Assembly: GCA_022822245.1 (NCBI GenBank)
Contig: JAJECB010000484.1
Coordinates: forward strand, 1-11,572
DNA from: Gammaproteobacteria bacterium
GTDB taxonomy: Bacteria; Pseudomonadota; Gammaproteobacteria; HK1
Length of the DNA stretch: 11,572 nt
Direction: 5' to 3'
Under the pieces are notes generated by a model that was given only the letters and a program-made list of their open reading frames with translations, searched no databases and had not been told where the DNA came from. Positions 6,311 through 9,245 of the stretch are shown one piece after another. Position 1 is the first letter of the stretch, and the number at the start of each line of letters is the position of its first letter. A program made the position numbers and the translations under genes.

Positions 6311-9055
6311 ATGGTGGCGAACATCCTGCGCCGAGTGGTCGGGTCGCGTAACGAGCGCATGCTGCGCCGCTATCGTCGGACCGTGGCCGCCGTCAACGAG
6401 CTCGAGCCCGGCCTTCAGGGTCGGGAGGATGCGGAGCTCGCGGCAATCACGGAGACCCTGCGCGGCCGGCGGGCGGCCGGGGAGCCGGTCGACGCCCTGA
6501 TCCCGGAGGCGTTCGCGGTCGTGCGCGAGGCGGGGCGGCGCGCGCTCGAGATGCGCCACTTCGACGTGCAGCTCATCGGCGGCCTGGTGCTCCACGAGGG
6601 GCGTATCGCGGAGATGCGGACCGGGGAGGGGAAGACTCTCGTGGCGACGCTCTCCGCCTACCTCAACGCCCTCGGCGGGGACAGCGTCCACATCGTCACC
6701 GTCAACGACTACCTCGCACGGCGAGACGCCGACTGGATGGGCCAGATCTACCGGCTCCTCGGCATGACGGTGGGGGTCGTGGTGCCGGGCCAGACCCCGG
6801 CCGAGAAGCGCGAGGCGTACCGGGCCGACATCGTCTACGGGACCAACAACGAGTTCGGGTTCGACTACCTGCGCGACAACATGGCCTTCTCGCTGGTCGA
6901 GAAGGCGCAGCCGCGCCTCGCCTATGCCATCGTCGACGAGGTCGATTCGATCCTCATCGACGAGGCCCGCACGCCGCTCATCATCTCGGGGCCGTCGGAG
7001 GAGAGCTCGGAGCTTTACTTGCGCATCAACCGGCTGATCCCGAACCTGGAGCGCCAGGAGCGCGAGCCCGCCGACGAGGAGGACCACGTCCCCGGAGACT
7101 ACTTCGTGGACGAGAAGACGCGGCAGGCGCATCTCACCGAGACCGGTTACCGCCGGGTCGAGGAGCTGCTCGGGGAGGAAGGTCTGCTCGGCCGCGACGA
7201 ATCGCTCTACGACACCGCCAACGTGATGCTCCTCCATCACTTCGACGCGGCCCTTCGCGCCCACTCCCTCTACCACCGCGACGTGCACTACCTGGTGCGG
7301 GGCGGCGAGGTGATCATCGTCGACGAGTTCACCGGCCGCACCATGGCCGGCCGGCGCTGGTCGGACGGCCTGCACCAGGCGGTAGAGGCAAAGGAGGGGG
7401 TCACGATCCGGCAGGAGAACCAGACCCTCGCGTCGATCACCTTCCAGAACTACTTCCGACTCTACGACAAGCTCGCGGGAATGACCGGGACCGCGGACAC
7501 CGAGGCCGCCGAGTTCCAGCAGATCTACGGGCTCGAGGTGGCCGTGATCCCGACCCACCTCCCGATGGTCCGCGACGATCGGGCCGATCTCGTCTATCTC
7601 AAGCAGGAAGAGAAATTCCAGGCCATCGTCGACGAGATCGGCGAATGCCGGGAGCGGGGCCAGCCGGTCCTCGTCGGCACCGCCTCCATCGAGACCTCGG
7701 AGTTTCTCTCCTCGCGGCTGCGGCGCGAGGAAGTCCCCCACCAGGTGCTCAACGCCAAGCACCATGAGAGCGAGGCGCAGATCATCGCGCAGGCCGGCAA
7801 GCCCGGCACGGTGACGATTGCGACCAACATGGCGGGCCGTGGCACGGACATCGTGCTAGGCGGCAACTGGCGAGTGGAGTTCGGCGAGGACGCGGACGAG
7901 GAGGTCCGCACCGCGTGGCAGGAGCGCCACGACGCGGTGGTGGGGGCGGGGGGGCTCCACATTGTCGGCACCGAGCGTCACGAGTCGCGTCGCGTCGACA
8001 ACCAGCTCCGGGGCCGGTCGGGGCGCCAGGGGGATCCGGGCTCGAGCCGGTTCTTCCTGTCGCTCGAGGACGATCTGATGCGCATCTTCGCCGCCGAGCG
8101 CGTGTCCGGACTCATGCAGAAGCTGGGGGTGGAGGAAGGAGAGGCGATCGAGCACCGCTGGGTGACGAAGGCGATCGAGAACGCCCAGCGCAAGGTCGAG
8201 GGGCGCAACTTCGACATTCGCAAGCAGCTTCTCGAGTACGACGACGTGGCGAACGACCAGCGGCGCGAGATCTACGCGCTGCGCGACGAGCTCATGTCGA
8301 CCGACGACGTCTCCGAGATGTACGAGGCGGTGCGTTCCGACGTGGTGAACGGGACGATCGACGCCTTCATCCCCCCCGAGAGCCTCGACGAGCTCTGGGA
8401 CGTGCCGGGCCTCACCCGGGAGCTCGCCGCGGAGTTCGGCCTCACCCTCGACCTCCAGGGCTGGCTCGACGCCGACGACGAGCTCCACGAGGAGCCCCTG
8501 CGCGCGCGCATCCTCGACACGTTCGCGGCCGCCCATCTCGAGAAGGAGAAGGTGGTCGGTTCCGAGACCATGCGGGCGATCGAGAAGGCGGTGATGCTGC
8601 AGGTGCTCGACGTCATCTGGAAGGAGCACCTCGCCGCGATGGACTACCTCCGCCAGGGGATCCATCTTCGCGGATATGCCCAGAAGAACCCCAAGCAGGA
8701 GTACAAGCGCGAGTCATTCGAGATGTTCCGCGCCCTGCTGGAGCGGTTCAAGACCGAGGTGGTCCGGCTCCTTTCCCGGGGGGAGATCCGGCCCGGAGAG
8801 GAACCGGAGGCCCCCGCCGCGCCGCCGCCTCCGGCGCCCGTCCAGGTCGAGTACTCTCACGCCGAGGTGAGCGCGCTTGCGCTGGAGGCGGAGATGGCCG
8901 CGGCGACCGCAGGGGAGGCGATGCCGGGCCCCGAGCCGACGGAAGGGCCGGTCGCCCAGCCCTTCGTGCGCTCGGGAAGGAAGGTCGGCCGCAACGAACC
9001 CTGCCCCTGCGGTTCGGGCAAGAAGTACAAGCACTGCCACGGGCGCCTGCATTAG
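6311..9055 (+). CDS. secA: Protein translocase ATPase subunit SecA
   Basis: SecA is the motor ATPase that drives preproteins through SecYEG in the inner membrane. The product has 914 residues (E. coli 901) and is complete. From the N-terminus it shows the SecA opening GSRNERMLRR (11-20), the Q motif region FDVQLIGG (84-91), and Walker A MRTGEGKT (102-109, K108). Walker B is IVDEVDS (207-213), and RDNMAFS (188-194) lies in NBD1. The preprotein cross-linking region follows, then NBD2 with TIATNMAGRGTDIVLGG and ERHESRRVDNQLRGRSGRQG. The helical wing and scaffold region contains WKEHLAAMDYLRQGIHLRGY. A Pro/Ala-rich linker leads to the C-terminal zinc and SecB-binding motif CPCGSGKKYKHCH, with C898, C900, C909 and H910 as metal ligands. 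The TAG stop at 9053-9055 borders directly on an inverted-repeat element. The M23 peptidase gene often found near secA is absent here. Confidence 0.99.
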   Translation: MVANILRRVVGSRNERMLRRYRRTVAAVNELEPGLQGREDAELAAITETLRGRRAAGEPVDALIPEAFAVVREAGRRALEMRHFDVQLIGGLVLHEGRIAEMRTGEGKTLVATLSAYLNALGGDSVHIVTVNDYLARRDADWMGQIYRLLGMTVGVVVPGQTPAEKREAYRADIVYGTNNEFGFDYLRDNMAFSLVEKAQPRLAYAIVDEVDSILIDEARTPLIISGPSEESSELYLRINRLIPNLERQEREPADEEDHVPGDYFVDEKTRQAHLTETGYRRVEELLGEEGLLGRDESLYDTANVMLLHHFDAALRAHSLYHRDVHYLVRGGEVIIVDEFTGRTMAGRRWSDGLHQAVEAKEGVTIRQENQTLASITFQNYFRLYDKLAGMTGTADTEAAEFQQIYGLEVAVIPTHLPMVRDDRADLVYLKQEEKFQAIVDEIGECRERGQPVLVGTASIETSEFLSSRLRREEVPHQVLNAKHHESEAQIIAQAGKPGTVTIATNMAGRGTDIVLGGNWRVEFGEDADEEVRTAWQERHDAVVGAGGLHIVGTERHESRRVDNQLRGRSGRQGDPGSSRFFLSLEDDLMRIFAAERVSGLMQKLGVEEGEAIEHRWVTKAIENAQRKVEGRNFDIRKQLLEYDDVANDQRREIYALRDELMSTDDVSEMYEAVRSDVVNGTIDAFIPPESLDELWDVPGLTRELAAEFGLTLDLQGWLDADDELHEEPLRARILDTFAAAHLEKEKVVGSETMRAIEKAVMLQVLDVIWKEHLAAMDYLRQGIHLRGYAQKNPKQEYKRESFEMFRALLERFKTEVVRLLSRGEIRPGEEPEAPAAPPPPAPVQVEYSHAEVSALALEAEMAAATAGEAMPGPEPTEGPVAQPFVRSGRKVGRNEPCPCGSGKKYKHCHGRLH

Positions 9056-9245
9056 CCCGGCAATCTCACCAACTTCTTGGCTAGCGGACGCGGATCCGCT
9101 CGCTGTGACAAGGCGTACTCCCTCAAGCCGCTTCGACGTAGGGTCGGCTACGCCTTCAGCAGCGCGCAGCGCTCTTTCGGTCCGTGCGCCTTGTCACAGC
9201 GGCATCTCCGCGCCCTCGCGACGAAAGTTGGTGAGATTTCCGGGC
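9055..9245. repeat. About 190-bp imperfect inverted-repeat element between convergent genes (MITE-like or structured 3' element)
   Basis: The outer arms, 9055-9075 and 9225-9245, are complementary at 20 of 21 positions; GCCCGG then AATCTCACCAACTT is shared. The inner arms, 9101-9118 (CGCTGTGACAAGGCGTAC) and 9184-9201, match at 17 of 18, and the exception would be a U-G wobble in plus-strand RNA. Between the arms AGCGGA (9083-9088) and TCCGCT (9095-9100) form a small hairpin. The central loop holds AGCCG/CGGCT (9126-9130/9145-9149). AAGGCGTA (9110-9117), part of the inner arm, can also pair perfectly with TACGCCTT (9149-9156). The outer arms touch the secA stop on one side and lie one base from the oxygenase stop on the other. 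No transposase or credible ORF is inside, and no T-run follows either arm. The symmetry is seen directly; mobile-element or terminator roles are inference. Confidence 0.85.

Follow-up and report, generated by a model that had tools for sequence, protein, structure and literature searches.

Between secA and a Rieske ring-hydroxylating oxygenase gene on an 11,572-nucleotide contig of a Gammaproteobacteria bacterium (JAJECB010000484.1, assembly GCA_022822245.1; the whole stretch is called the window below) lies a long, nested inverted repeat that fills the gap between these two convergent genes. We conclude that this element is very probably one copy of a dispersed family of miniature inverted-repeat transposable elements (MITEs) with ends of the IS1380 type and CTAG as their target. 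A MITE had been one of two explanations offered by an earlier, sequence-only reading of this DNA, and it is supported by dispersed copies, by flanks that are mostly CTAG, by a site that is unoccupied in 29 relatives and by IS1380 elements with identical ends. The family is probably moved by borrowed IS1380-type enzymes. Bacterial MITEs are already known; no description of this family was found among the open-access papers listed by our searches, with subscription journals and ISfinder lying outside them. The parts of the element are as follows.

9052 to 9055: the target word on the left side, here TTAG, which differs from CTAG at one base and has its TAG serving as the secA stop (from the sequence and the flank counts of the family).
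9054 to 9075, + strand: left terminal inverted repeat (outer arm), complementary to 9225-9246 at 21/22 positions and resembling the family end AGCCCGCATTTCTCACC.
9101 to 9118, + strand: left inner arm, complementary to 9184-9201 at 17/18 positions and covarying among copies.
9137 to 9152: central hairpin of the conserved core (CGTAG-GGTCGG-CTACG), which can be aligned and is conserved in the majority of 36 copies and is predicted in the alignment fold.
9184 to 9201, + strand: right inner arm, from its complementarity to 9101-9118.
9215 to 9223, + strand: CTCGCGACG, a conserved block with the family form CTCGCKACG, located just inward of the right terminal repeat and among the best-conserved columns of 36 copies.
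9225 to 9246, + strand: right terminal inverted repeat (outer arm), in which 9245-9246 (CT) are extra relative to the family consensus GGG-CTAG.
9247 to 9250: right copy of the target word, CTAG, with its TAG on the - strand serving as the oxygenase stop.

The secA reading ends CAT-TAG, with the stop at 9053-9055, and the oxygenase, on the - strand, ends CCC-TAG, its stop being the complement of 9247-9249. The left arm starts within the first of these stops and the right arm finishes immediately before the second, and the element is flanked on both sides by the target word or a near-copy of it (TTAG at 9052-9055, CTAG at 9247-9250). The sequence-only reading had seen the same two nested pairs of arms, and its figures of 20/21 and 17/18 hold, the former for the borders that it had chosen, 9055-9245. 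That the element fits between the two stops was also right, while its exact ends had been placed about one base off on each side. The sole mismatch of the inner arms is a T facing a G on the + strand (T-C as printed), which stays pairable as U-G in RNA, as had been said. The element is about 180-190 bp long and contains no transposase gene. The predicted fold energy of 9050-9250 is -113.7 kcal/mol on the + strand (z -9.75) and -121.1 kcal/mol on the - strand (z -9.04, both against dinucleotide shuffles), and on either strand none of 200 shuffles folded as well. If transcribed from either gene, the element would, by this folding model, form a very stable 3' hairpin, with a possible effect on the mRNA.

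A DNA search of the window element against 369 gammaproteobacterial genomes, in which two candidates per genome were scored, gave a match at E 0.01 or better in 19 of them (G, L and P numbers below denote genomes, loci and proteins). Copies spanning at least 70% of the element with 70-76% identity were found in G194 and G285 (two each), G001, G287 and G228; the remaining matches are mostly short and may be due to chance. The terminal word AGCCCGCATTTCTCACC, allowing up to two mismatches, occurs 351 times in G290, 220 in G285, 171 in G306 and 56 in G194, as well as four times in G287, three in G228 and zero in G001, with zero or one occurrence of its reversed control. Across 20 regions of G285 such words are arranged as convergent pairs with a spacing of mostly 121-289 bp, and because the pairs enclose different interiors, several MITE subfamilies have common ends.

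A covariance model built from eight copies (186 positions) matched 23 of the 369 sampled genomes at E 1e-4 and one of 398 genomes sampled across the phylum (E 1e-6); at most seven (class) and six (phylum) candidates were scored per genome, so the copy numbers are lower bounds. Multiple copies reside in single genomes, including G285, G290, G262, G029, G293 and others. For the analyses of copies that follow, we used 76, including that of the window, with one match per locus, duplicate model matches on the reverse strand dropped and the weak loci L283 and L284 excluded; three of the 76 (L179, L180 and L182) are cores within longer elements. The paired positions covary: compensatory changes were found in 26 of 63 pairs among eight copies and in 41 of 68 pairs among 17 copies in the minus orientation. 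With 17 copies no measure of covariation was reached by any of 500 shuffles, and with eight copies one measure was reached by a single shuffle of 500 and the others by none. Structures slid along the alignment scored much lower in both tests, a comparison in which the real structures are flattered since they were derived from the same alignments. The sequence-only reading had singled out copy number in related genomes and covariation of the arms as informative, and both speak for a family.

Transposase genes of the PF13701 family lie between the same ends in two genomes, G306 (L196, 1366-3121, 479 aa) and G290 (L197, 1357-3102, 485 aa; the contig ends there). Both of these IS1380 elements have the terminal inverted repeat CTAG-CCCGCATTTCTCACC, as in the family, with scores against the NCBIfam IS1380 model of 393 and 406 bits, respectively (cut-off 180, which L292 also exceeds), and both genomes carry the MITE family together with the complete IS1380 elements. 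Related ends, CTAGCCCGGATTATTCATGAA and CTAGCCCGGATATTTCAC, bound IS1380-type elements in G290 (L200) and G377 (L292). An IS1380-type element of G179 (L299) scores 131 bits in NCBIfam, below the cut-off of 180, and 74 in Pfam, where the cut-off is 34.7. Its 47-nt ends, which include a CTCGCGACG-type block, match the last 42 nt of the MITE of the same genome (L281) at 97.6%, block CTCGCKACG included.

Of 116 distinct ends with at least 500 bp of sequence outside the element, 81 are flanked by the tetranucleotide CTAG, 12 by TTAG and nine by CCAG. Within the subfamily of the window CTAG accounts for 93 of 152 flanks. For this count the position of the right-hand word could vary by a few bases and the word closest to CTAG was taken, so CTAG is favoured on that side; the count of 116 ends involved no such freedom. 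One copy (L124) has CCGG on both sides, as expected of a duplication. In G285 the rlmN stop codon precedes a 165-bp element that belongs to a related subfamily and has CTAG at either end, and we compared this site with loci from 29 of the 35 other family genomes with an rlmN match. None of these 29 relatives has a terminal repeat in the 420 bases past the stop; they carry a single word at the site, mostly TTAA, CTAA, TTGA or CTGA, with TTAG in two loci (L230 and L232) and, in L235, a CTAG that is unoccupied. The comparison supports duplication of the four-base CTAG on insertion. For the window copy itself, we infer a target duplication from its TTAG and CTAG flanks. In a separate observation, the likely ATG start of the gene downstream of rlmN seems to lie inside the right terminal repeat of the related MITE (L194, 4696-4706).

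CTAG is scarce in the window, occurring four times against 32 expected from base composition. The stop of ftsA also lies within a CTAG (3481-3484), which is an unoccupied potential target.

The position of the element at two stop codons has parallels elsewhere in the family. At 74 ends an open reading frame (ORF) of 150 codons or more runs towards the element and stops between -150 and +400 bases from the end. In 23 of these cases the stop coincides with the flanking TAG, and every other offset is represented at most twice. At 27 of the 116 ends the frame is open for at least 150 codons, compared with five and eight in the other two frames. Within the subfamily, five of the 76 copies have less than 400 bp on one side and were left out, and an ORF of 120 codons or more directly adjoins 28 of the remaining 71, which have both flanks. 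A real TAG is present in 26 of these (the stricter count, since L282 and L317 have no TAG on that side); control frames over all 76 copies gave 18/304. Three elements have stops on both sides, namely those of the window, L264 and L194:1378-1708. We considered whether the transposase targets stop codons and rejected this, as unoccupied CTAG words outside long ORFs lie at a stop nearly as often, in 11 of 31 cases (5/14, 3/8 and 3/9) compared with 16 of 35 insertions; this control covers fetched sample regions rather than whole genomes, with three pairs with short flanks dropped. Since empty CTAG words are also found at stops, a CTAG target together with loss of insertions inside genes is sufficient to explain the pattern, and each gene retains its own stop after insertion because CTAG contains TAG on both strands.

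These counts also bear on the second explanation offered by the sequence-only reading, in which an RNA structure terminates or stabilises the two transcripts. A bidirectional terminator or 3'-end stabiliser belonging to secA and the oxygenase, and selected in place, would accord with the location between convergent stops and with the very stable fold on both strands. We consider it highly improbable, as the element belongs to a dispersed family with target-word flanks, of which 43 of the 71 copies with both flanks do not abut the stop of a long ORF, and the copies that do so abut genes in both orientations. Moreover, no intrinsic terminator, that is, a G+C-rich hairpin followed by a run of T, was found on either strand of 8800-9500. 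The earlier explanation is not supported as an account of the element, and an influence on the transcripts would be a possible side effect.

Based on these results, we propose that the terminal repeats of a MITE were recognised by an IS1380-type transposase acting in trans, and that the element was inserted into a CTAG with duplication of the four bases. Here this CTAG would most likely have been an overlapping stop shared by secA and the oxygenase in the ancestral arrangement. Each gene would have been left with its own TAG, so the insertion would have been nearly neutral and could have survived. Insertion at a shared convergent stop that left each gene its stop would also explain why the element fills the gap exactly. 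A partner IS1380 element in the host would be predicted to bear ends like CCCGGCAATCTCACC.

It should be noted that several observations weigh against a MITE of this origin. The further copies and the IS1380 elements all come from genomes other than that of the host. No other copy exceeds 75% identity to that of the window, whose left word is TTAG and whose right end carries two extra bases. Among 19 further carrier genomes IS1380 matches were found in six, only five of them above the Pfam cut-off, and G001 carries the family yet has no IS1380 match, with many of the genomes looking like fragmented assemblies. Copies in G388, which has three model matches, share the core but end quite differently, with TTAGGTTCTGTTGACATTC ... 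GAATGTCAACAGAACCTAG in L277, and no insertion sequence with ends of the TTAGGTTCTGTTGACATTC type was found in that genome. Finally, a duplication of 5 bp, not of 4 bp as seen for the MITEs, is given for IS1247, a member of the IS1380 family (PMC3281130).

A different interpretation is that the selected entity is a structured RNA (a small RNA or 3' untranslated region element) made from the strand antisense to the covariance model, with the transposon ends a mere vehicle. In the window this is the - strand, antisense to secA. The antisense-to-model strand folds better in 74 of the 76 copies and in all 26 clusters below 85% identity, by a mean of 16.0 and 17.3 kcal/mol, respectively, and the advantage lies mostly in the core (25 of 26 clusters, compared with 22 of 26 for the outer arms). 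The copies are related by descent, so these counts share ancestry; when such ancestry was simulated, only one of 40 families had the same sign in all 12 descendants. At pairs predicted for both strands, departures from complementarity were, on this strand, G-U alone at 12 and A-C alone at three (p 0.035), or 13 and four among 26 representatives (p 0.049), and unpaired columns are purine-rich on the antisense-to-model strand. For pairs taken from the structure of the other strand the G-U bias is not significant (p 0.12 and 0.21), and 14 other MITEs with the same ends have a mean strand difference of 11.5 kcal/mol, and simulated palindromes have a standard deviation of 12. Abutting genes read the core both ways (15 and nine with a real TAG, and two on both sides), and the window copy has four G-U pairs on either strand. 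At gathering score, Rfam 15 yielded no family for the window, nor for 20 copy-bearing loci, and 9000-9300 gave matches below threshold only. With controls so mixed, we did not adopt selection at the RNA level as the principal explanation and regard it as doubtful.

A combination of this interpretation with transposition is conceivable, in which the family is a two-part parasite: a module retained across gammaproteobacteria, with an RNA fold on one strand, would be joined to lineage-specific transposon ends (CCCGCATTTCTCACC, CCTGCATTATTCATGAA, CCCGCTTTTCTCACAG and GTTCTGTTGACATTC) that borrow different transposases, and CTAG would be used to enter shared stops harmlessly. We put this forward as speculation that we think unlikely to be correct. 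Selection on the one-strand fold, if it exists, would make the family a case of transposon-borne structured RNA.

One 63-residue frame is open through the element, and among 5.8 billion proteins it has a single match, P0121 (E 3.2e-7, 83% over 35 residues). The first half of this 106-residue protein is weakly phage-integrase-like (Pfam E 0.042, below the cut-off) and its second half resembles a translated copy of the element, so an integrase gene appears to contain a copy or to be followed by one. Neither the translation of the element nor P0121 matched viral contigs or plasmids, the DNA of the element had no match in phages at E 0.1, and in plasmids only the 3' end of secA was matched (query 1-49). 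The inner-arm word has five matches in IMG/VR, in similar surroundings that resemble one coding gene, with no second arm in the stretch of up to 140 bases covered after the word.

The two neighbouring genes abut the target-word copies as follows.

6311 to 9055, + strand: secA, ending at the left target-word copy.
9247 to 10467, - strand: Rieske ring-hydroxylating oxygenase gene, ending at the right target-word copy.

The C-terminus of the oxygenase has the same length and the same final residues (ATP) as that of P0002, a relative with 93% identity, and the protein has therefore not been cut short. Its nearest named relative, at 80%, comes from the Immundisolibacterales, others reaching 93%. 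Among the 80 loci listed for SecA, relatives reach at most 65% identity, FtsA relatives in the 369 gammaproteobacterial genomes reach at most 70%, and the three genomes covered from the order of G374 gave nothing closer. The host is thus probably a gammaproteobacterium. The genes secA and mutT are usually adjacent. In the window the oxygenase is located between secA and a nudix/TMP-synthase gene, and a nudix relative is present in the secA loci of several relatives (e.g., L001, L004, L038 and L075). The oxygenase gene, which has inverted repeats on both sides, may have arrived later. The second of these repeats (10505-10535/10599-10629), between the start of the oxygenase and the nudix-thiE gene, has 31-nt arms that are 87% complementary and a fold z of -5.8; it has one marginal match, in L091 (79% over 42 nt, E 0.005).

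Overall, what was an isolated oddity can be assigned to a mapped family, for which a plausible mover, a target word and a rule on where copies survive can be given. CTAG is scarce and carries TAG on both of its strands, so that an insertion at a shared stop would be nearly harmless, and this offers an explanation of how mobile elements can come to lie flush against two genes.

Among known systems, the IS1380 insertion sequences (NCBIfam NF033539, Pfam PF13701) share with the family the terminal repeat CTAG-CCCGCATTTCTCACC in L196 and L197 and related ends in L200, L292 and L299, and differ in carrying a transposase gene, which the window element does not. It was reported that IS1380 insertions are over-represented between co-oriented genes (PMC9208149). 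The dispersed palindromes known as GTAG repetitive extragenic palindromes (REPs) are also found 3' of genes, where their ends often supply TAG stops, and GT pairing of residues was reported in their stems (PMC3733652). GTAG words in the core of our element add to this likeness, and the element could be thought of as a REP or REPIN mobilised by a RAYT (IS200/IS605-like) protein. This is extremely unlikely, given the long terminal inverted repeats shared with IS1380 elements, the CTAG on both sides and a length of about 180-190 bp, whereas GTAG REPs are described as RAYT-linked palindromic units of 20-40 bp without IS1380 ends. MITEPsy1 of Pseudomonas syringae is similarly short and non-autonomous and duplicates CTAG or YTAA; it differs in its length of 100 nt and its ends, GGAAGGTCTGAAAAAGCC, was tied by its authors to ISPsy2 rather than IS1380, and has no nested core mentioned in the accessible part of that report (PMC3189936). 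By analogy alone, the family also resembles piggyBac, a eukaryotic transposon that duplicates the palindromic tetranucleotide TTAA and for which IS1380 transposases served as an outgroup in a piggyBac study (PMC10813416).

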